Shown: positions 12,240 to 23,008 of the stretch, in pieces
Numbering within the stretch: position 1 is the stretch's first letter
How the letters are laid out: each line of letters begins with the position of its first letter
NCBI RefSeq assembly: GCF_003344965.1
Contig: NZ_CP031194.1
Coordinates: 5,890,001-5,954,000, forward strand
Direction of reading: 5' to 3'
DNA from: Streptomyces paludis
GTDB taxonomy: Bacteria > Actinomycetota > Actinomycetes > Streptomycetales > Streptomycetaceae
Length of the DNA stretch: 64,000 nucleotides
The notes under the pieces: generated by a model
Databases searched by the model: none
What the model was told of the DNA's origin: nothing
Seen by the model: the letters and a program-made list of their open reading frames with translations, nothing else
Position numbers and translations under genes: made by a program

Positions 12240-13574
12240 TCAGAGGCCCGCGAGCGCCTCCTCGATGATGTCCAGACCCTCGTTCAGCAGGTCCTCGCCG
12301 ATCACCAGCGGCGGCAGGAAGCGCAGCACATTGCCGTACGTGCCACAGGTCAGCACCAGCAGCCCCGCCGCGTGGCACGCCTTGGCGAGCGCGGCGGTCG
12401 CCTCGGCGGCGGGCTCCTTCGTACCGCGGTCCTTCACCAGCTCGACCGCGATCATCGCGCCGCGGCCCCGGATGTCACCGATCAGCTCGTGCTTCTCGGC
12501 CATGGCCGCGAGCCGGTCCTTCATGACCGTCTCGATGCGCTTGGCCTTCCCCGCCAGATCCAGCTCCCGCATCGTCTCGATGGAGCCGAGCGCGGCGGCG
12601 CACGCCACCGGGTTCCCGCCGTACGTACCGCCGAGTCCGCCCGCGTGCACGGAGTCCATGATCTCGGCGCGGCCGGTGACGGCGGCGAGCGGCAGCCCGC
12701 CCGCGATGCCCTTGGCCGTGGTGATCAGGTCGGGGACGATCCCCTCGTCCTCGCAGGCGAACCACTGGCCGGTACGGCAGAAGCCCGACTGGATCTCGTC
12801 CGCCACGAACACGATCCCGTTGTCCTTGGCGAACTTCGCCAGCGCGGGCAGGAAGCCCTTCGCCGGCTCGATGAAGCCGCCCTCGCCGAGCACCGGCTCG
12901 ATGATGATCGCGGCGACGTTCCCGGCGCCGATCTGCTTGCTGATCTGGTCGATGGCCTGGGCGGACGCCTCGGCGCCACAGTTCTCGGGGCCGGTCGGCC
13001 AGCGGTAGCCGTACGCGACCGGTACCCGGTAGATCTCCGGGGCGAACGGGCCGAAGCCGTTCTTGTACGGCATGTTCTTCGAGGTCAGCGCCATGGTCAG
13101 ATTCGTACGGCCGTGGTAGCCGTGGTCGAAGACGACGACGGCCTGGCGCTTGGTGTACGACCGGGCGATCTTCACGGCGTTCTCGACGGCCTCGGCGCCC
13201 GAGTTGAACAGCGCCGACTTCTTGGCGTGGTCGCCCGGCGTCAGCTCCGCGAGCCGCTCACAGACCTCGACGTACCCCTCGTACGGCGTGACCATGAAAC
13301 AGGTGTGGGTGAAGTCCGCGAGCTGCGCGGACGCCCGGCGCACCACGGCCTCGGCGCTCGCGCCGACCGAGGTCACGGCGATACCGGAACCGAAGTCGAT
13401 CAGCCGGTTGCCGTCCACGTCCTCAAGGATCCCGCCGTCCGCGCGGGCGGCGAACACGGGCAGCACGGACCCCACCCCACCGGCGACCACGGAGGTACGG
13501 CGGGCCTGGAGTTCCCGCGACTTGGGTCCGGGGACGGGGGTGACGAGGCGGCGCTCCTGCGGAACAGTGGTCAT
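12240..13574 (-). CDS. gabT: 4-aminobutyrate aminotransferase (GABA transaminase)
   Basis: A 444-aa class-III PLP aminotransferase converting GABA and 2-oxoglutarate to succinate semialdehyde and glutamate. The PLP lysine K288 is in ITTAKGIAGGLPLAAV; upstream are NSGAEAVENAVKIAR, VVVFDHGYHGRTN, EPVLGEGGFI and FVADEIQSGFCRTG. ATG at 13574 is preceded by AGGAG. Length and motifs fit bacterial GabT. With the polyamine importer, amine oxidase and aldehyde dehydrogenases nearby, it would receive GABA made from putrescine. The gene is on the opposite strand and has its own promoter region in the gap 13575-13886. Confidence 0.93.
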   Translation of the reverse strand: MTTVPQERRLVTPVPGPKSRELQARRTSVVAGGVGSVLPVFAARADGGILEDVDGNRLIDFGSGIAVTSVGASAEAVVRRASAQLADFTHTCFMVTPYEGYVEVCERLAELTPGDHAKKSALFNSGAEAVENAVKIARSYTKRQAVVVFDHGYHGRTNLTMALTSKNMPYKNGFGPFAPEIYRVPVAYGYRWPTGPENCGAEASAQAIDQISKQIGAGNVAAIIIEPVLGEGGFIEPAKGFLPALAKFAKDNGIVFVADEIQSGFCRTGQWFACEDEGIVPDLITTAKGIAGGLPLAAVTGRAEIMDSVHAGGLGGTYGGNPVACAAALGSIETMRELDLAGKAKRIETVMKDRLAAMAEKHELIGDIRGRGAMIAVELVKDRGTKEPAAEATAALAKACHAAGLLVLTCGTYGNVLRFLPPLVIGEDLLNEGLDIIEEALAGL

Positions 13575-13886
13575 GAGGGGCTCCTGGGGGAGTTTCACGG
13601 GATGAGACCGACCGGCGGTCTTTTCGGCTTTCCCCGCAGGCTAGGGGGGACGGGCGGGCCCGGGCATGCGCCGTTCGGGAGTGGTGCGCGCGTGTCGTTG
13701 TCCGCGACGGACATAGCGTGGGGCACACCTTGGCGGGCGCGGGACGGCGATCCACCCGGCGATCCCCCGGCGATCCACCCGGCGCCCCCCGGTGATCCAC
13801 TCGGTGAGCTACCCGCCGAATCCCGTACGGGGACAGTAGATTGACGGGGGCACAAGGGCGGAGACCGCACAGGGGGCAGGGCTTTC
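13575..13886. promoter_or_regulatory. Divergent intergenic region of gabT with iteron-like repeats
   Basis: 312 bp without a gene, between gabT (minus) and the P-loop protein (plus). From about 13745 to 13803 there are four imperfect copies of a GGCGATCCACCC-like element in direct orientation, close to the P-loop gene's start. No clear promoter consensus could be assigned. The repeats are candidate regulator sites or slippage products. Confidence 0.4.
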
Positions 13887-16331
13887 ATGGACACGGACGG
13901 CACCGGCACGCACAACGCACCCCCCGGCCCGGTCCCGGCGCCCACCGGCTCCGTACCCCCGCTGCCGCGCCCGGCGGCGCCGCCCCGGCCCTCGTACGCC
14001 CCGGCCCCGCCGTCGCACCCCCCGGCGGAGGCCGCCGCGCGGTCCGCCGCCGTCTCCCTGGACGACTGGCTCCGTACCCCCCGGCGCGCCGAGGCCCCCG
14101 GGGTCTGGGGGTACGGACATGTGCCGAGGCCGCCCGAGAAGCCCGACGGCGTGCCCCATCGACAGCTGTTCGTCGGCGTGCTGATCTCCGTGTTCGTCGG
14201 CACGCTCGTCTGGACCCTCTGGCGCAACGGCTACATCCCGTACCGGCTGGTCCCGCTGAAGCTCTTCACCCCGGGCGACTGGTGGTACGCGGGAAGCTTC
14301 GGCGGTCCGCGGACCCAGGAGGCGGCGCGGGCCGTCGTCGTCTACGAAGCGCTGCTCTTCGGGCTGCTGGTGTACGTCTGCGCCCGGCTCGGGAACTGGG
14401 CCGAGCTGTTCCGGCGCCATGTCGCCCGCCGGGGGCAGCCCTTCCGCGCCGCCGCCACCGCGGCCGGAGGCGCGCTGGCGCTGCTGCTGGTCTGGCAGGA
14501 CATCCTGCCGGTCGCGCGGCCGGTGCTGATCGTGGTCGCCTGGATCGCGGGCGGCGAGCTGTTCCAGAGCCAGAACACCGTGAACGTGATCTACGTGCTG
14601 ATCAGCGTCGGCGTGCTCTGGCCCTTCGCCCGGCTGGGCGAGTGGCGCGCGCTCGTGGCGCGTTACGCGGGGGCCCGCGCGACGACGGGACCCGGTGCCG
14701 GGGCGGGATCCGGTGCCGCGGTGGCCGATGGCGCCGCGCACCCGGACGCGGAGGCCGCCGCCCCCTCGCCCGCCGAGTGGCCGGAGCTGCGGGCCGCCGG
14801 GCAGCGGGACGCCGCCGAGACCCTGGCCGCCGAGGCGCGCGCCGGCGGGATGAACGACGTCGACTGCGCCCGGCTGCGCCGCGCGTGGTCCGTTGCCGCC
14901 GCCCGGCCCGAACGGATCGCCGCCTTCACCGAGGCGGTGCTGCGCAAGGGCGCCGCCGCCTGCCCGCACCCCTCCGGGGACCGCGACCTGCCGCAGCGCA
15001 CCGCCCGGCACGACCTGCTCACCGGCCAGGTCAGGATCGGCAGCTGCGCGGACGACCCGCACAACCCCTACGAGCGCCGCGGCTCCGGCGTCGCCCTGGA
15101 ACCCGCCCTCCTCGGCACCTCGCTGCTGGCCGTCGGCCCGCCCGGCGCCGGGAAGTCCGGCCGGCTGGTGCGGCCCCTCGTCGAATCCCTCGCGCTCCAG
15201 GCGCTCGCCGGGCAGGCCGCCGTGGTCGCGGTCTGTGCCGCCGGCACCCCGCTCGGGCCCGACAGCGCGTACGACGTCGTCATCAAGATCGGTGACCCCG
15301 CGTCCCCGCACGACCTCGACCTGTACGGCGGCACCACCGACCCCGACGAGGCCGCGGCGGTCCTCGCGGAGGGGCTGGCCGGCGATGTCGGCACGGTCGA
15401 CGGCCGCCGCGCGGCCTCCGCGCTGGCCCAGCTCATCGGTCCGTACCGGGCCGCCCACGGCCACTTCCCGGCGGTGCCCGTGCTCCGCGAGCTGCTCGAC
15501 GGGGACCCGGCCGCGCTGACCGGCCTGCGGGCGGCGCTGACGGCCGCCGACGACCGCGCGATGCTCCGCGAACTCGACGCCCGCGCCCGCCAGGCGGGCG
15601 GCGCGGGCGACCCCGGTCCGCTGCTCTCCGACCGGCTCGCGCTGCTCGACCGGCCCGCGTTCGCGGAGTTCTTCGCCACCGGAGCGCGGACCCGCGTCTT
15701 CTCGCTGCGCTCCTTGGAGGGGCTGCCCGTACGGGTACGGATCGAGCTGCCCGAGCGCGCCCACGCCGAGGCGTCCCGGCTGCTCGCCCGGCTTGTCCTC
15801 GCCCAGTTCACGGCGGTCGCGGCGGCCCGTACGGACCGGTCGCTCTTCATCTGCCTCGTCCTGGACGACGCGACCCACACCCTCACCCCCGAGACCGTGC
15901 GCGGGGTGCGGCGGCTCCGGTCGGTGAACGCGGGGGCGGTCCTCGCGCTGCGGACCATTGACGATGTAGCGGAAGGGCTGCACACGGCGCTGCTCGGCGC
16001 GGTCGGCTGCTGCATGGCGTTCTCGGGTGTCACCACCTGGGACGGCAAGCGCTTCGCCGAGGTGTGGGGCAAGGAGTGGGTGGAGACCCGCGAGGTCGCC
16101 CAGCACACGGTCTTCGCGGACCAGCCGTTCACCCGGGCCGTCCACGCGCTGCGGAAGCTCGTCACCGGCAAGGCCGTGACCACGGACGCCGTTACCGTCC
16201 GGCAGGTCGAGCGCGAGCGCTGGTCCGCCTCCGAGCTTGCGTACGAGGTCCCCGCCGGGCACGCCGTGCTGTCCCTCCGTACGGTGGCGGGCGACCACGC
16301 CCCGCCGCTGCTGGTGGACCTGCGGGGCTGA
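13887..16331 (+). CDS. Membrane-anchored P-loop ATPase, VirD4/TraG-like
   Basis: An 814-aa protein. Residues 1-90 are Pro/Ala-rich. Membrane segments follow: QLFVGVLISVFVGTLVWTLW, VVVYEALLFGLLVYVCARLG, AAAGGALALLLVWQDILPVARPVLIVVAWIAGGELF and VNVIYVLISVGVLWPF. The soluble C-terminal half has Walker A VGPPGAGKSGR and a Walker B-like LFICLVLDDATHTL, with a late VEVRQ-type region before AGHAVLSLRT. The layout (N-terminal helices, then a motor domain) resembles type IV coupling proteins, but no relaxase or mating genes are near, so a DNA-transfer role cannot be claimed. ATG at 13887 follows a GGGGGCAGGG stretch. Function unknown. Confidence 0.75.
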   Translation: MDTDGTGTHNAPPGPVPAPTGSVPPLPRPAAPPRPSYAPAPPSHPPAEAAARSAAVSLDDWLRTPRRAEAPGVWGYGHVPRPPEKPDGVPHRQLFVGVLISVFVGTLVWTLWRNGYIPYRLVPLKLFTPGDWWYAGSFGGPRTQEAARAVVVYEALLFGLLVYVCARLGNWAELFRRHVARRGQPFRAAATAAGGALALLLVWQDILPVARPVLIVVAWIAGGELFQSQNTVNVIYVLISVGVLWPFARLGEWRALVARYAGARATTGPGAGAGSGAAVADGAAHPDAEAAAPSPAEWPELRAAGQRDAAETLAAEARAGGMNDVDCARLRRAWSVAAARPERIAAFTEAVLRKGAAACPHPSGDRDLPQRTARHDLLTGQVRIGSCADDPHNPYERRGSGVALEPALLGTSLLAVGPPGAGKSGRLVRPLVESLALQALAGQAAVVAVCAAGTPLGPDSAYDVVIKIGDPASPHDLDLYGGTTDPDEAAAVLAEGLAGDVGTVDGRRAASALAQLIGPYRAAHGHFPAVPVLRELLDGDPAALTGLRAALTAADDRAMLRELDARARQAGGAGDPGPLLSDRLALLDRPAFAEFFATGARTRVFSLRSLEGLPVRVRIELPERAHAEASRLLARLVLAQFTAVAAARTDRSLFICLVLDDATHTLTPETVRGVRRLRSVNAGAVLALRTIDDVAEGLHTALLGAVGCCMAFSGVTTWDGKRFAEVWGKEWVETREVAQHTVFADQPFTRAVHALRKLVTGKAVTTDAVTVRQVERERWSASELAYEVPAGHAVLSLRTVAGDHAPPLLVDLRG

Positions 16332-16528
16332 GGGCGGGCCGGGGTGCGAGGCCGGGGGCCGAGTGCGAGCACCTCGCTTCGTACAGGCTGGCAGAATCGG
16401 GGTACGCCGTTCATACGGGACGGCGTACTCGTCTCGTCCCGCGTTTCCTCCGGAGCGGGCGGTGACGGTGGCAGCGGCATCGGCCTCCGTGACCGGCCCG
16501 CCGTTCCCGAAAGTACGACGGTTCCGCC

Positions 16529-18256
16529 ATGCCGCCCACGCTCGCCTCGCTCGTCCAGCACTCGGCGCTCCATCTGACCGTGCACGCGGGGGAGGACCGG
16601 CTGCGGACGCCCGTGCGGTGGGTGCACGCGAGTGAGCTGGCCGATCCCGTGCCGTACATGGAGGGCGGCGAGCTGCTCCTCATCACGGCGACCACGCTCG
16701 ACGCCGCGGATCCGGAGGCGATGCGGCGCTACGTACGGCGGCTGACCGGCGCGCGCGTGGCCGGGCTCGGCTTCGCGATCGGCGTGAACTACGACGAGAT
16801 CCCCGAGGCGCTCGTCACGGCGGCCCGCGAGGCCGGGCTGCCGCTGCTGGGCGTGCCGCGCCGGACCCCGTTCCTCGCCATCAGCAAGGCGGTGTCGGCG
16901 GCCCTCGCGGCCGACCAGTACCGCGCCGTCACCGCCGGGTTCGACGCCCAGCGCGAGCTGACCCGCGCGGCGCTCGCCGACGGGCCCGCCGGGCTGCTGG
17001 CCCGGCTCGCGGCGCATGTCGACGGCTGGGCCGCGCTGTACGGCGCGTCCGGCGCGGTCGTGGCCGTCGCCCCGGAGTGGGCCGCGCGGCGGGCGGCGCG
17101 GCTGACGGACGAGGTACGGCGGCTCCGTGAGCGGCCCGCGCCGGCGAGCGCGGTGGTGTCGGGGGCCGACGCCGGTCCCGATGCCGGTCCCGATGCCGAT
17201 GCCGATGCCGATGCCGATGCCGGTGGCGGTGGCGGTGGCGATGGCGGTCCCGATGGCGACGCCACCGCCACCGACGCCACCGACCGCGTCGAACTCCAGT
17301 CGCTCGGCACCGGCCGTCGCGTACGCGGCGCGCTCGCCGTAGGTACGGGCGCGGCGCTCGGGACCGCCGAGCGGTACGCCGTGCACTCCGCGATCGCCCT
17401 GCTCACCCTCACGACCGAGCGCTCCCGTGCCCTCCAGTCGGCCGAACAGCGCCTCGGCGCCGCCGTGTTGCGCATGCTGCTCGCCGGACAGTCCGACCAC
17501 GCGCGCGCCGTCGCGGGCGACCTGTACGGAGCGCTGCTGGACGCCCCGTTCCGGCTGCTGATCGCGGAGACCGCGACCGGACAGACCGCGGCTGTACGGG
17601 CCCCCGCCGCGCAGGGCGCCGCCGATCCGTCCGACCACCCGCTCCACGTCCTCACCGAGGTTCTGGAGGCGGCGGCGGCCCGGGCGGGCGAGCCCGTGCT
17701 CGCGGTCCCGGACGGCGAGGAGCGGCTCGCGGTCCTCGCCGTGGACGGCGGCTCGACCGTCACGACCTGCGTGGCGTACGCGCGGCGCGAGTCCGAGGAG
17801 GCGGGCGTCGTCATCGGCCTCTCCGCGCCCACCGGCCCCACGGCCACGGCAGGCGCCTACAAGCAGGCCGAACAGGCCCTCTCCGTGGCGCGCCGCCGGG
17901 GCCGCGCCCTGGTCGAGCACGAGGAACTCGCCGCCGGCTCCCTCCTGCCCCTGCTGGCCGACGACGCCGTACGCGCCTTCGCCGACGGCATGCTCCGCGC
18001 CCTGCGCGAACACGACGCCAAGGGCCGCGGCGACCTGGTGGCCTCGCTGCACGCCTGGCTCTCCCGCCACGGACAGTGGGACGCGGCGGCGGCCGACCTG
18101 GGCGTCCACCGCCATACGCTGCGCTACCGGATGCGCCGGGTGGAGGAGATCCTCGGCCGCTCCCTGGACGACCCGGACGTACGGATGGAACTGTGGCTGG
18201 CCCTGAAGACAACGGCCCCCAGCGCAACGCCGGAGGCCCAGTCCCCAACGGCGTAG
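16529..18256 (+). CDS. PucR-family transcriptional regulator
   Basis: A 575-aa regulator. The N-terminal PucR domain (about 1-125) starts LASLVQHSALHLTVHAGEDRLRTPVRWVHASELADP, and the C-terminal helix-turn-helix is WDAAAADLGVHRHTLRYRMRRVEEILGRSLDDPDVRMELWLAL. Between them is a variable linker with Asp/Ala and Gly repeats (about residues 211-250) and a GGDEF-like central region. PucR-type proteins sense small nitrogen compounds; the C. glutamicum GABA regulator GabR is of this type. Lying between gabT and a semialdehyde dehydrogenase gene, it is a likely activator of GABA catabolism. The 196 bp before it hold no gene. The 14-bp repeat array begins 71 bp after its stop. Confidence 0.88.
   Translation: MPPTLASLVQHSALHLTVHAGEDRLRTPVRWVHASELADPVPYMEGGELLLITATTLDAADPEAMRRYVRRLTGARVAGLGFAIGVNYDEIPEALVTAAREAGLPLLGVPRRTPFLAISKAVSAALAADQYRAVTAGFDAQRELTRAALADGPAGLLARLAAHVDGWAALYGASGAVVAVAPEWAARRAARLTDEVRRLRERPAPASAVVSGADAGPDAGPDADADADADAGGGGGGDGGPDGDATATDATDRVELQSLGTGRRVRGALAVGTGAALGTAERYAVHSAIALLTLTTERSRALQSAEQRLGAAVLRMLLAGQSDHARAVAGDLYGALLDAPFRLLIAETATGQTAAVRAPAAQGAADPSDHPLHVLTEVLEAAAARAGEPVLAVPDGEERLAVLAVDGGSTVTTCVAYARRESEEAGVVIGLSAPTGPTATAGAYKQAEQALSVARRRGRALVEHEELAAGSLLPLLADDAVRAFADGMLRALREHDAKGRGDLVASLHAWLSRHGQWDAAAADLGVHRHTLRYRMRRVEEILGRSLDDPDVRMELWLALKTTAPSATPEAQSPTA
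17160..17260 (+). repeat. In-frame microsatellite in the pucR linker
   Basis: Five tandem GATGCC hexamers (17192-17221), preceded by GATGCCGGTCCC copies and followed by GGTGGC/GATGGC copies, encode Asp-Ala and Gly runs in the linker of the PucR protein. The hexamer period keeps the frame, so length changes would alter only the linker. Confidence 0.85.
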
Positions 18257-18326
18257 CCCCCGACAGGCCCGCCCCCACCGACCGGCACCGGCTGCCCCCG
18301 CCCCGCCGCGCACGCCCCGCGCGGTC

Positions 18327-19173
18327 GCCGTACCGGCTGCGCCGTACCGGCTGCGCCGTACCGGCTGCGCCGTACCGGCTGCGCCGTACCGGCTGCGCCG
18401 TACCGGCTGCGCCGTACCGGCTGCGCCGTACCGGCTGCGCCGTACCGGCTGCGCCGTACCGGCTGCGCCGTACCGGCTGCGCCGTACCGGCTGCGCCGTA
18501 CCGGCTGCGCCGTACCGGCTGCGCCGTACCGGCTGCGCCGTACCGGCTGCGCCGTACCGGCTGCGCCGTACCGGCTGCGCCGTACCGGCTGCGCCGTACC
18601 GGCTGCGCCGTACCGGCTGCGCCGTACCGGCTGCGCCGTACCGGCTGCGCCGTACCGGCTGCGCCGTACCGGCTGCGCCGTACCGGCTGCGCCGTACCGG
18701 CTGCGCCGTACCGGCTGCGCCGTACCGGCTGCGCCGTACCGGCTGCGCCGTACCGGCTGCGCCGTACCGGCTGCGCCGTACCGGCTGCGCCGTACCGGCT
18801 GCGCCGTACCGGCTGCGCCGTACCGGCTGCGCCGTACCGGCTGCGCCGTACCGGCTGCGCCGTACCGGCTGCGCCGTACCGGCTGCGCCGTACCGGCTGC
18901 GCCGTACCGGCTGCGCCGTACGCCGTACCGGCTGCGCCGTACCGGCTGCGCCGTACCGGCTGCGCCGTACCGGCTGCGCCGTACCGGCTGCGCCGTACCG
19001 GCTGCGCCGTACCGGCTGCGCCGTACCGGCTGCGCCGTACCGGCTGCGCCGTACCGGCTGCGCCGTACCGGCTGCGCCGTACCGGCTGCGCCGTACCGGC
19101 TGCGCCGTACCGGCTGCGCCGTACCGGCTGCGCCGTACCGGCTGCGCCGTACCGGCTGCGCCGTACCGGCTGC
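18327..19173. repeat. 60-copy perfect 14-bp tandem repeat (minisatellite)
   Basis: The unit GCCGTACCGGCTGC is repeated head to tail without a single substitution that I can see: 42 copies (18327-18914), one 7-bp half unit GCCGTAC (18915-18921), then 18 copies (18922-19173), 847 bp in all. Each unit contains GTAC and an interrupted palindrome GCCG-TAC-CGGC. Because 14 is not a multiple of 3 and the unit has no stop in any phase, all six frames are open and each encodes a 14-residue repeat (RRTGCAVPAAPYRL in permuted phase on plus). No ribosome binding site or plausible start precedes it, so I treat it as non-coding. It fills most of the 1084-bp gap between pucR and the second aldehyde dehydrogenase gene. 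Confidence 0.97.
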
Positions 19174-19340
19174 GCCGCCGCGCATCGCCCCCACCCCACC
19201 CCGCCCCCGTACGACATTGCGGCACACCGCGACACCCCATCACTCCACCCCGGACAACCCCCCACGCGCCCCCACGCCCCTACCGTGGACCCCACACGGT
19301 CATTCACCCCCGGATCTACTCGGAAGGGCCCGGACCCGCC

Positions 19341-20786
19341 ATGACTTCCACCCACGCCTTCTGGCTCGCCGGCCGCCAGGCCACCGGCGACGACACGTTC
19401 GATGTCACCTCCCCCTGGGACAACCGGCTCGTCGGCACCGTCGCCGTGCCGACCGACGCCCAGATCGAGGAGGCCGTCGCGGCGGCGCACGCCGTGCGGG
19501 ACGAGTTCGCCGCGACGCCCGCGCATGTACGGGCCGCCGCCCTCGACCACGTCTCGCGCCGGCTCGCCGAGCGCACCGAGGAGATCGCCCGGCTGATCTC
19601 CGCCGAGAACGGCAAGCCGCTCAAGTGGGCCCGCGGCGAGGTCGGCCGGGCCGTCTCCGTCTTCCGGTTCGCCGCCGAGGAGGCCCGCCGCTTCAACGGC
19701 GGCGAGGCGCAGCGCCTGGACACCGACGCGGGCGGCACCGGCCGGCTCGCGCTGACCCGTCGCTTCCCGCGCGGCACCGTCCTCGGGATCGCGCCGTTCA
19801 ACTTCCCGCTCAACCTCTGCGCGCACAAGATCGCGCCCGCGATCGCGGCCGGCGCGCCGATCATCCTCAAGCCCGCCCCGGCGACACCGCTCTCCGGGCT
19901 GGTCCTCGGCGAGCTGCTGGCCGAGACGGACCTCCCGGCCGGCTCCTGGTCCGTACTGCCCGTGCCGAACGACCGGATGCCCGCCCTCGTCCAGGACGAG
20001 CGGCTGCCGGTGATCTCCTTCACCGGCTCCGACAAGGTCGGCTACGCGATCATGGATTCGGTGCCGCGCAAGCACTGCACCCTGGAGCTGGGCGGCAACG
20101 GCGCGGCCGTCGTCCTCGCCGACTACGCGAGCGACCAGGACCTCGACTGGGCCGCGACCCGGATCGCCACCTTCTCGAACTACCAGGGCGGCCAGTCCTG
20201 CATCTCCGTACAGCGCGTGATCGCGGACGCGTCCGTGTACGACCGGCTGGTGCCCAGGATCGTCGCCGCCGTCGAGGCCCAGACCACCGGTGACCCCGCC
20301 GACGACACCACGGATGTCGGTCCGCTCGTCAGCGAGGACGCCGCCAGGCGCGTCGAGGGCTGGGTCGACGAGGCGGTACGGGCCGGGGCCCAGCTGCTGA
20401 CCGGCGGCAAGCGGGACGGGGCGTCCTACGCGCCCACCGTCCTCGCCGAGGTCCCCGCGGACAGCACCCTCGCCCAGGAGGAGGTCTTCGGACCCGTCCT
20501 GACGCTCCAGCGGGTGGACGGCGAGGCCGCGGCGTTCGGGACGGTGAACGGCTCGAAGTACGGCCTCCAGGCAGGGGTGTTCACCCATGACCTCCAGGCC
20601 GCCTTCCGCGCCCACCGCGCCCTGGAGGTCGGCGGCGTGATCATCGGCGACGTCCCGTCGTACCGCGCCGACCAGATGCCGTACGGCGGAGTCAAGCAGT
20701 CCGGGGTCGGCCGCGAGGGCGTGCGGTTCGCGATGGAGGACTACACGTACGAGCGGGTCCTGGTGCTGACGGGACTGGACTTGTAG
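19341..20786 (+). CDS. Aldehyde dehydrogenase, probable succinate-semialdehyde dehydrogenase
   Basis: A 481-aa NAD(P)-dependent aldehyde dehydrogenase with APFNFPLNLCAHKIAPAIAAG, general base E249 in LELGGN, nucleophile C287 in GGQSCISVQR, and EEVFGPVLTL. ATG at 19341 follows a GGAAGG sequence. The position after gabT and the PucR regulator argues for oxidation of succinate semialdehyde to succinate, the last step of GABA use. The LELGGN/GGQSC signatures also occur in lactaldehyde and other non-specific dehydrogenases, so the substrate is inferred. The 14-bp array ends 167 bp upstream, so any leader or promoter lies close to or inside it. Confidence 0.85.
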   Translation: MTSTHAFWLAGRQATGDDTFDVTSPWDNRLVGTVAVPTDAQIEEAVAAAHAVRDEFAATPAHVRAAALDHVSRRLAERTEEIARLISAENGKPLKWARGEVGRAVSVFRFAAEEARRFNGGEAQRLDTDAGGTGRLALTRRFPRGTVLGIAPFNFPLNLCAHKIAPAIAAGAPIILKPAPATPLSGLVLGELLAETDLPAGSWSVLPVPNDRMPALVQDERLPVISFTGSDKVGYAIMDSVPRKHCTLELGGNGAAVVLADYASDQDLDWAATRIATFSNYQGGQSCISVQRVIADASVYDRLVPRIVAAVEAQTTGDPADDTTDVGPLVSEDAARRVEGWVDEAVRAGAQLLTGGKRDGASYAPTVLAEVPADSTLAQEEVFGPVLTLQRVDGEAAAFGTVNGSKYGLQAGVFTHDLQAAFRAHRALEVGGVIIGDVPSYRADQMPYGGVKQSGVGREGVRFAMEDYTYERVLVLTGLDL

Positions 20787-20806
20787 GAGGTACGGGGAGC
20801 GGCGCG

Positions 20807-20853
20807 CCCGCACCGGTCGAGGCACGCGTCCCGTGTTCCACGACTGGTGCGGG
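20807..20853 (+). terminator. Hairpin after the second aldehyde dehydrogenase gene
   Basis: Stem arms 20807-20819 and 20841-20853 pair over 13 bp with one G-U, with a 21-nt loop, 20 bp after the TAG. No T-tract. Probably a factor-dependent or weak terminator. Confidence 0.5.
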
Positions 20854-20983
20854 TGCCCGGGGTCGGGTACATCTCGGAGGGATACACCGGAGGGAGACAA
20901 GGGACGCGGACGCGTCCCGGGTCCCCTTCCGCTCCCCTCCCCATCCCCCTCCCACCCCCACTCCGCGGCGAGGTGATGTCCTC

Positions 20984-23008
20984 ATGTCCGCTCCACCCAC
21001 CCGCTCGACGCACTCCGACCCGTCCCGTCCCTCCGCACCGCATGAACGTTCCGGTGAACCTTCCGGCCCGCCCAAGGTCTCCGAGCGCGAGGCCCGCCGG
21101 GTCGCGGAAGCCGCCCGCGAGCAGGGCTGGCGCAGGCCGAGCTTCGCCAAGGAGATGTTCCTCGGCCGCTTCCGCCTCGATCTGATCCATCCGCACCCGC
21201 TGCCCGCGCCCGACGACGTACGGCGCGGCGAGGAGTTCCTGGCGAAGGCGCGCGCGTTCTGCGAGACCCGGATCGACGGCGCGCTGATCGAGCGCGAGGC
21301 CCGGATCCCCGACGAGGTGATCCGCGGCCTCAAGGAGCTGGGCGCACTCGGGATGAAGATCGACACCGCGTACGGCGGCCTCGGCCTCACCCAGGTGTAC
21401 TACAACAAGGCCCTCGCGCTCTTCGGCACCGCCAGCCCCGCGGTCGGCGCGCTGCTCTCCGCGCATCAGTCGATCGGCGTACCGCAGCCGCTCAAGCTCT
21501 TCGGCACGCCGGAGCAGAAGGACGCCTTCCTGCCGAGGCTGGCCCGTACGGACATCTCCGCGTTCCTCCTCACCGAGCCGGACGTGGGCTCCGACCCGGC
21601 CAGGCTGGCGACGACGGCCGTGCGGGACGGCGACGCGTATGTGCTCGACGGGGTGAAGCTGTGGACGACCAACGGGGTCGTCGCGGATCTGCTGGTGGTG
21701 ATGGCCAGAGTCCCGAAGCCGGAAGGCGCCGAAGAGGCCCCGGAGGGGAGCCGGGGCGGGATCACCGCGTTCGTCGTCGAGGCGGACTCCCCGGGCATCA
21801 CGGTCGAGCACCGTAACGCCTTCATGGGCCTGCGCGGCCTGGAGAACGGCGTCACGCGCTTCCACCGGGTCCGGGTCCCGGCGGCGAACCGGATCGGCCC
21901 CGAGGGCGCGGGCCTCAAGATCGCCCTCACCACCCTCAACACCGGCCGGCTCTCGCTCCCCGCGATGTGCGTGGGCGCGGGCAAGTGGTGTCTGCGGATC
22001 GCCCGCGAGTGGTCGGGCGCCCGTGAGCAGTGGGGCCGGCCGGTGGCCCGGCACGAGGCGGTGGGCGCGAAGATCTCGTTCATCGCGGCGACCACGTTCG
22101 CGCTGGAGGCGGTCGTGGACCTGTCCTCCCAGATGGCGGACGAGGACCGCAACGACATCCGGATCGAGGCGGCCCTCGCCAAGCTGTACGGCTCCGAGAT
22201 GGGCTGGCTGATCGCCGACGAACTCGTCCAGATCCGCGGCGGCCGGGGCTTCGAGACCGCCGACTCGCTGGCCGCCCGCGGCGAACGGGCCGTCCCCGCC
22301 GAGCAGATGCTCCGCGACATGCGGATCAACCGGATCTTCGAGGGCTCCACCGAGATCATGCATCTGCTGATCGCGCGCGAGGCGGTCGACGCGCATCTCG
22401 CCGTCGCCGGGGACATCATCGACCCGGACACCTCCCTCTCCGACAAGGCGCGGGCGGGCGCGAAGGCGGGGCGGTTCTACGCGGGCTGGCTGCCGAAGCT
22501 GGTCGCGGGCCCCGGCCAACTGCCCGGCTCGTACGCCGAGTTCCATCCCGCCGGGCATCCGGATCTCGCCGTACACCTGCGCTATGTCGAACGGACCGCG
22601 CGCAAGCTCGCCCGCTCCACCTTCTACGCCATGTCGCGCTGGCAGGGCCGGATGGAGACCAAACAGGGCTTCCTGGGCCGGATCGTCGACATCGGCGCCG
22701 AGCTGTTCGCGATGAGCGCCGCGTGTGTACGGGCCGAGATGCTGCGGGCGAACAGGGACCACGGACGCGAGGCGTACCAACTGGCCGACGTGTTCTGCCG
22801 GCAGGCGCGGATCCGGGTCGAGGAACTCTTCCACCGGCTCTGGACCAACACCGACGAACCGGACCGCCGGGTGGTGGACGGCGTCCTGGCCGGTACGTAC
22901 ACCTGGCTGGAGGAGGGGGCGGTGGACCCGAGCGGCACCGGCCCGTGGATCGCGGACGCGGCGCCGGGACCGACGGAACGGGAGAACGTGCACCGGCCGA
23001 TCCGCTGA
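20984..23008 (+). CDS. Long-form acyl-CoA dehydrogenase
   Basis: A 674-aa FAD acyl-CoA dehydrogenase, longer than the usual 380-400 aa because of an N-terminal extension and a C-terminal helical domain, as in VLCAD/ACAD9-like proteins. Seen: LKELGALGMKIDTAYGGLGLTQVYYNKALALFG, FLLTEPDVGSDPARL (FAD and substrate contacts), VKLWTTNG, LQ-type substrate-channel residues in VQIRGGRGFETADSL, and the probable catalytic base E453 in FEGSTEIMHLL. ATG at 20984 has GAGGTGATG upstream. It would desaturate fatty acyl-CoAs in beta-oxidation. It stands alone between the GABA genes and the convergent zinc-ribbon gene, with a strong terminator after it. Confidence 0.9.
   Translation: MSAPPTRSTHSDPSRPSAPHERSGEPSGPPKVSEREARRVAEAAREQGWRRPSFAKEMFLGRFRLDLIHPHPLPAPDDVRRGEEFLAKARAFCETRIDGALIEREARIPDEVIRGLKELGALGMKIDTAYGGLGLTQVYYNKALALFGTASPAVGALLSAHQSIGVPQPLKLFGTPEQKDAFLPRLARTDISAFLLTEPDVGSDPARLATTAVRDGDAYVLDGVKLWTTNGVVADLLVVMARVPKPEGAEEAPEGSRGGITAFVVEADSPGITVEHRNAFMGLRGLENGVTRFHRVRVPAANRIGPEGAGLKIALTTLNTGRLSLPAMCVGAGKWCLRIAREWSGAREQWGRPVARHEAVGAKISFIAATTFALEAVVDLSSQMADEDRNDIRIEAALAKLYGSEMGWLIADELVQIRGGRGFETADSLAARGERAVPAEQMLRDMRINRIFEGSTEIMHLLIAREAVDAHLAVAGDIIDPDTSLSDKARAGAKAGRFYAGWLPKLVAGPGQLPGSYAEFHPAGHPDLAVHLRYVERTARKLARSTFYAMSRWQGRMETKQGFLGRIVDIGAELFAMSAACVRAEMLRANRDHGREAYQLADVFCRQARIRVEELFHRLWTNTDEPDRRVVDGVLAGTYTWLEEGAVDPSGTGPWIADAAPGPTERENVHRPIR

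Follow-up and report, generated by a model that had tools for sequence, protein, structure and literature searches.

The spacer between a PucR-family regulator gene and an aldehyde dehydrogenase gene was found to carry 60 identical copies of the 14-bp unit GCCGTACCGGCTGC, at positions 18327..19173 of a 64,000-nucleotide stretch of Streptomyces paludis DNA (the window), interrupted once by a 7-bp half unit (exact match). This array is most likely a young, neutral, noncoding minisatellite produced by slippage and/or unequal recombination. It is probably a functionless stutter of DNA copying and not a new kind of genetic element. The genes and array segments considered were as follows.

12240-13598, minus strand: gabT gene (curated GABA transaminase cut-offs passed)
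16529..18256, plus strand: PucR-family regulator gene (PF07905, PF17853, PF13556)
18257..18326, plus strand: left flank, 70 bp, containing ACCGGCTGC at 18287-18295 (shuffle-tested alignment)
18327..18914, plus strand: first block, 42 perfect copies of GCCGTACCGGCTGC (exact unit count)
18915..18921, plus strand: half unit GCCGTAC, 7 bp, one CGGCTGC half absent (sequence)
18922..19173, plus strand: second block, 18 perfect copies of GCCGTACCGGCTGC (exact unit count)
19341..20786, plus strand: aldehyde dehydrogenase gene (PF00171)

Structure and edges of the array

The array started 70 bp past the stop codon of the pucR-family gene and ended 167 bp ahead of the dehydrogenase gene. A first-pass annotation, made from the sequence, had counted 42 copies, a 7-bp half unit and 18 copies, and the recount gave exactly the same numbers and coordinates; the GCCG-TAC-CGGC dyad and the GTAC that it noticed in each unit are both present. 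The unit is laid out as arm-loop-arm-loop, GCCG TAC CGGC TGC, with each GCCG pairable with the CGGC on either side, and the half unit has lost exactly one arm and one loop (CGGCTGC). It is indeed exactly half a period long, as the annotation said, but the slippage or offset crossover suggested there was not singled out as the mechanism, since a single indel of non-unit size could be 7 bp by chance.

TRF described the array as 14 bp x 61.4 with a score of 1655, the strongest in the window, and the runner-up scored 175. No exact units are expected there by chance (100 shuffles, largest number 0). The edges were sharp, the match to the unit extending only 1 base leftward and 4 bases rightward. 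As in a minisatellite, the 14-bp units (TRF and exact count) are arranged head to tail and fall within the range of 10-30 nt, the position between the pucR stop codon and the dehydrogenase start is noncoding, and the repeat occupies a single site and is not a dispersed family (whole genome and relatives searched). A CRISPR array was ruled out, as the copies abut directly with no unique spacers between them.

In the left flank, ACCGGCTGC could be the seed from which the unit arose, though support is weak, 88 of 2000 shuffles having aligned equally well; for the right flank as seed, equally good alignments were given by 1132 of 2000 shuffles. The sequence CCGCCGCGCA(T)CGCCCC flanks the array on either side, but its significance as a repeat was rejected, with 464 of 2000 shuffles scoring equally. 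A short GC-rich stretch right behind the pucR stop codon was probably duplicated, and the duplicate would have grown in this lineage to about 60 identical copies by replication slippage and/or unequal recombination. Strand misalignment could have been favoured by the alternating arms GCCG-TAC-CGGC-TGC, and the resulting array would probably have no specific role.

Age of the array

No substitutions were present among the copies in the assembly (0 in 840 sites), which by the rule of three places their divergence below about 0.0036 per site. At fourfold sites of the dehydrogenase gene, the difference to the nearest of 86 relatives, S. scopuliridis (L032), was 0.256 (289 sites, uncorrected). This contrast suggests that the expansion, or the last homogenisation, was recent, provided that the copies were not polished alike and that the array evolves at about the fourfold-site rate. 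Recent expansion had been proposed from the sequence before, and the identity of the copies, the sharp edges and the absence of the array from the other genomes searched all agree with it.

A perfect array of 847 bp is longer than short reads, and polishing can make copies alike. Even for a real array, assembly or polishing might account in part for the number of copies or for their perfect identity, a reading compatible with a young minisatellite. The first-pass annotation had also named the risk of an assembly artefact. This is unlikely, as the array lies deep inside one 8.45-Mb contig, hardly reachable by short-read assembly, and the 7-bp defect was preserved.

Reading frames across the array

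A stop scan confirmed the earlier statement that all six frames across the array are open, as expected when the period is not divisible by 3 and no phase of the unit contains a stop. Since ATG, GTG and TTG are absent from the unit on both strands, ORFs of at least 100 aa can cross the array only through frames entered from outside. One such ORF was found on the plus strand and three on the minus strand.

That the array is the coding sequence of a repeat protein would fit the open frames, but it is next to impossible: the same period of 14 and the 7-bp offset disrupt any frame, and the unit holds no start codon. Protein searches, in which the best 8000 candidates by shared words were scored, gave no match for one plus-strand frame (E 0.001) and one weak match, with E 0.16, for one minus-strand frame (E 10). 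A short 14-residue periodicity resembling the minus-frame translation was seen by eye in P0001, a predicted protein of 263 aa, a possible sign that a different genome carries a similar 14-bp unit.

Genes adjacent to the array

The left neighbour, previously annotated as pucR, is a PucR-family regulator gene by its Pfam domains. The right neighbour had been called a GABA-pathway dehydrogenase. It encodes an aldehyde dehydrogenase and gabT lies about 5 kb upstream, but the protein was below the cut-off of every NCBIfam model among the 25 matches listed of 39 (best listed score 412.5 bits against a cut-off of 650; SSADH, 286 against 646). Because gabT passes the GABA transaminase cut-offs, a GABA setting for the locus is plausible.

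Between gabT and pucR, an 814-aa frame (window 13887-16331, plus strand) had relatives in 77 of 109 loci, with a median identity of 65%; in the six relatives shown, similarity begins at residue 57-59. The frame had no Pfam or NCBIfam match and is a conserved predicted protein of unknown family.

Conserved block upstream of the dehydrogenase gene

The best 80 of 195 confirmed loci with pucR relatives, all from Streptomyces, were compared. The dehydrogenase gene was downstream on the same strand in 73 of them, 113-3215 bp from the end of the pucR match, and the other 7 lacked it in that position, in some cases owing to a contig end. With the array removed, the window's spacer would be 237 bp long; among 67 relatives with spacers of 20-1200 bp, the median was 228 bp and the quartiles were 160 and 310 bp.

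A promoter-like block is strongly conserved before the dehydrogenase gene in Streptomyces, corresponding to 19211-19336 in the window. Alignment of 68 upstream regions, including that of the window, showed box 1, box 2 with CGGACAA, CCTACCGTGG, and GGAAGGGCCGG before the start codon. The three elements scored with matrices were as follows.

19211..19228, plus strand: box 1, consensus gcCAa..cGg.G, possible regulator site, putative function (native score 15.7; relatives median 16.7, lowest 0.0)
19242..19262, plus strand: box 2, consensus CT.C..c.CGGACAAaCg, putative function (native score 22.9; relatives median 25.6, lowest -13.0)
19279..19288, plus strand: CCTACCGTGG, putative -10-like element of the dehydrogenase promoter (native score 17.8; relatives median 17.8, lowest -7.5)

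The window retains the whole block, with scores equal to or slightly under the medians of the relatives. The block is a candidate PucR regulatory site, and a regulator would most plausibly bind at its conserved boxes. The available text on GabR, a PucR-type regulator of Corynebacterium glutamicum, describes binding to a pair of 21-bp inverted repeats that directly precede the -35 region (PMC7652997).

The array is located wholly upstream of this block, with a gap of 37 bp to box 1. It would be tolerated because the part of the spacer that it occupies is not conserved, belongs to neither gene and precedes the dehydrogenase promoter block.

Tandem repeats in Mycobacterium tuberculosis promoters have units of 54-57 bp (dop, cysG), with 2-3 copies at dop, and vary in copy number, according to the accessible part of PMC12817950. 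By analogy with this precedent from another actinobacterium, in which such repeats are proposed to tune or switch expression, the array, also a noncoding tandem repeat upstream of an actinobacterial gene and beside a likely regulator, might be a copy-number-variable element that tunes or switches dehydrogenase expression. However, the repeats in the accessible part of that report are inside promoters, whereas the array stops short of box 1 and is outside the conserved block, within which the spacing is unchanged. The searched relatives have no such array, their spacers spanning 38-823 bp in the filtered set, and this possibility is very unlikely. Nor does the array resemble a phase-variable promoter repeat, being upstream of the intact block at 19211-19288, the presumed promoter. 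The phase-variable spacer that the first-pass annotation suggested for the downstream gene would also lie upstream of this block and leave its internal spacing unchanged. An actively homogenised, copy-number-variable array whose length acts as a regulatory dial, setting the coupling of pucR read-through to the dehydrogenase promoter, is also very unlikely.

The idea that the array titrates PucR, raised in the first-pass annotation, received no support. Sixty identical sites beside a regulator gene, with the GCC..ACCGGC of the unit resembling box 1 by eye, might act as decoys for PucR or another regulator. With matrices built from 67 relatives, the best scores in the array were 0.9, -11.9 and -4.5, far under the native 15.7, 22.9 and 17.8 (box 1, box 2 and -10-like element, respectively), and of the 126,250 other window positions, 422 had a box 1 score at least as good as that 0.9. 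The units thus match none of the three conserved elements, from which the true PucR operator may differ, and a decoy role is exceedingly improbable.

Folding of the array

Single-stranded DNA of 20 units folded somewhat better than shuffled sequences, with z values of -2.96 (plus strand) and -2.62 (minus strand), and 2 and 1 of 200 shuffles, respectively, were as good. For RNA, each of 20 shuffles gave a more stable fold than the array with its flanks (z +4.08). The small hairpins proposed earlier are therefore modestly favoured in DNA but disfavoured in RNA, which makes the hairpin argument weak.

The 4-bp stem in each unit and the DNA folding would speak for a structured element that insulates the two genes or terminates transcription between them, but this is highly improbable given the RNA result. 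The sole terminator-like site in 18200-19360 is on the minus strand at 18238-18214, outside the array, and the relatives manage without the array. Neither terminator-like nor promoter-like sites were found inside the array. A search of 16000-21000 against Rfam gave 8 matches up to E 1, all under the gathering score and none within the array.

Distribution of the unit and of comparable arrays

The whole genome, a single contig of 8,454,852 bp, contained 63 exact units, 60 in the array and 3 as scattered singles. The first-pass annotation had proposed a search for the unit in other Streptomyces genomes; among 392 genomes of the genus, a tandem pair occurred in 1, the window's own. When up to 3 mismatches were allowed, tandem pairs were found in 2 of 394 genomes of the family, a set partly overlapping the 392, and the second was a single 3-mismatch site in G382, in a degenerate GC-rich stretch.

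Perfect arrays of at least 4 copies with periods of 7-60 numbered 6, this array included, in the 29% of the genome that was scanned (2.464 Mb, made up of the window and 120 tiles totalling 2.4 Mb). The next by copies, with 8.4 perfect copies of the 7-bp unit AGGCCGC, was at L161:3084-3142, near the left chromosome end. In the same 29%, the TRF score closest to that of the array was 1482, for 2.7 copies of a 294-bp unit at L266:15985-16774; these copies are 97% alike, and the start of the repeat may resemble tandem acyl carrier domains. In other Streptomyces (80 loci, 1.02 Mb, three N runs left out), the maximum was 7.0 copies of 12 bp, equivalent to a hexamer x14. The size and perfection of the array are therefore unusual in the samples examined. 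A size so far beyond that of the sampled arrays counts against the minisatellite reading, and ordinary slippage alone leaves the growth unexplained.

None of the contigs ending near the spacer (L047, L090, L092 and L124), nor the pucR contig of G017, ends in the unit; the contig end of L047 is a degenerate GC-rich stretch, and G017 has an unrelated-looking stretch after pucR. The end of contig G017:C963 (L282) shows a possible trimming fault, with a sequence that presumably resembles a transposase adaptor. As for a mobile origin, no plasmid or phage match was obtained in a BLAST search whose low-complexity filter could hide repeats, and an exact 28-mer of the unit had no match in viral contigs.

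Tandem repeats in the spacers of relatives

Small tandem duplications of their own, unrelated to the unit, were seen in the pucR-dehydrogenase spacers of relatives: 12 bp x4.3 (L138), 14 bp x2.8 (L128) and 23 bp x2.0 (L122). In L138, the 12-bp repeat TCCGACCAGTAG crosses the pucR stop codon, so that every unit adds a TAG.

A strict count was made on a pool of 109 loci (L031-L110 and L122-L150), requiring at least 2 full perfect copies, a period of 5-45 and a run of at least 12. Loci in which the two genes did not both occur in the right order and orientation, on a single strand, matches with less than 55% identity or truncated ends, spacers shorter than 20 or longer than 1200 bp, and identical spacers were excluded, and imperfect repeats noticed by eye (L129, L078 and L066) were outside the count. 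Repeats were present in 4 of 67 pucR-dehydrogenase spacers, in 5 of the 64 that precede pucR, and in none of the 9 that follow the dehydrogenase gene. One of the four, in L146, is close to the dehydrogenase gene instead of pucR. With a run of at least 10, the counts for the first two classes were 9/67 and 7/64, and with a run of at least 18 they were 3 and 3.

The pucR-dehydrogenase spacer is thus no hot spot, and the idea of a preferred site was dropped because the neighbouring spacer is equally often repeated. Shuffled spacers gave means of 0.2 (pucR-dehydrogenase) and 0.1 (upstream of pucR), indicating that tandem duplication is above chance in these Streptomyces spacers.

Relation to known repeats and significance

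Palindromes of the REP/ERIC type are dispersed over a genome in many copies, whereas the unit has just the three single exact copies outside the array. MIRU and cyanobacterial STRR elements have units of either about 50-100 bp or 7 bp and are found at many loci, different from the one array of a 14-bp unit described here.

The prokaryotic satellites are closer. A survey of these reported 38 satellites in S. coelicolor, at a density of 4.2 per Mb, and 21.1% had units longer than 30 nt (PMC6749651). Like the array, satellites consist of head-to-tail units of 10-30 nt, often with a sequence that occurs just once; the array differs in its 60 perfect copies without decay, far from the 8.4 copies of the next perfect array sampled. 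The repeats of Borg elements, in the available portion of PMC9879509, also have perfect units of recent origin that arose independently in each lineage, but are pervasive and A-enriched, whereas the array is GC-rich and single in the part examined. The accessible part of PMC12699852 is restricted to repeat units of 1-9 bp. A literature search that covered titles and the starts of abstracts, most subscription papers being beyond its reach, found no paper on a 14-bp Streptomyces tandem array. The earlier remark that no Streptomyces element like it has been described agrees with this search as far as the unit is concerned, but short-unit satellites are on record from S. coelicolor (PMC6749651). 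The array is best placed in this known satellite kind, in which it is unusually long and perfect.

If the minisatellite reading is right, the array would serve mainly as a marker for strain typing and for rates of slippage and recombination in Streptomyces, and it would be liable to mislead gene callers and short-read assemblers. It would gain greater importance only if its copy number varies and alters expression.
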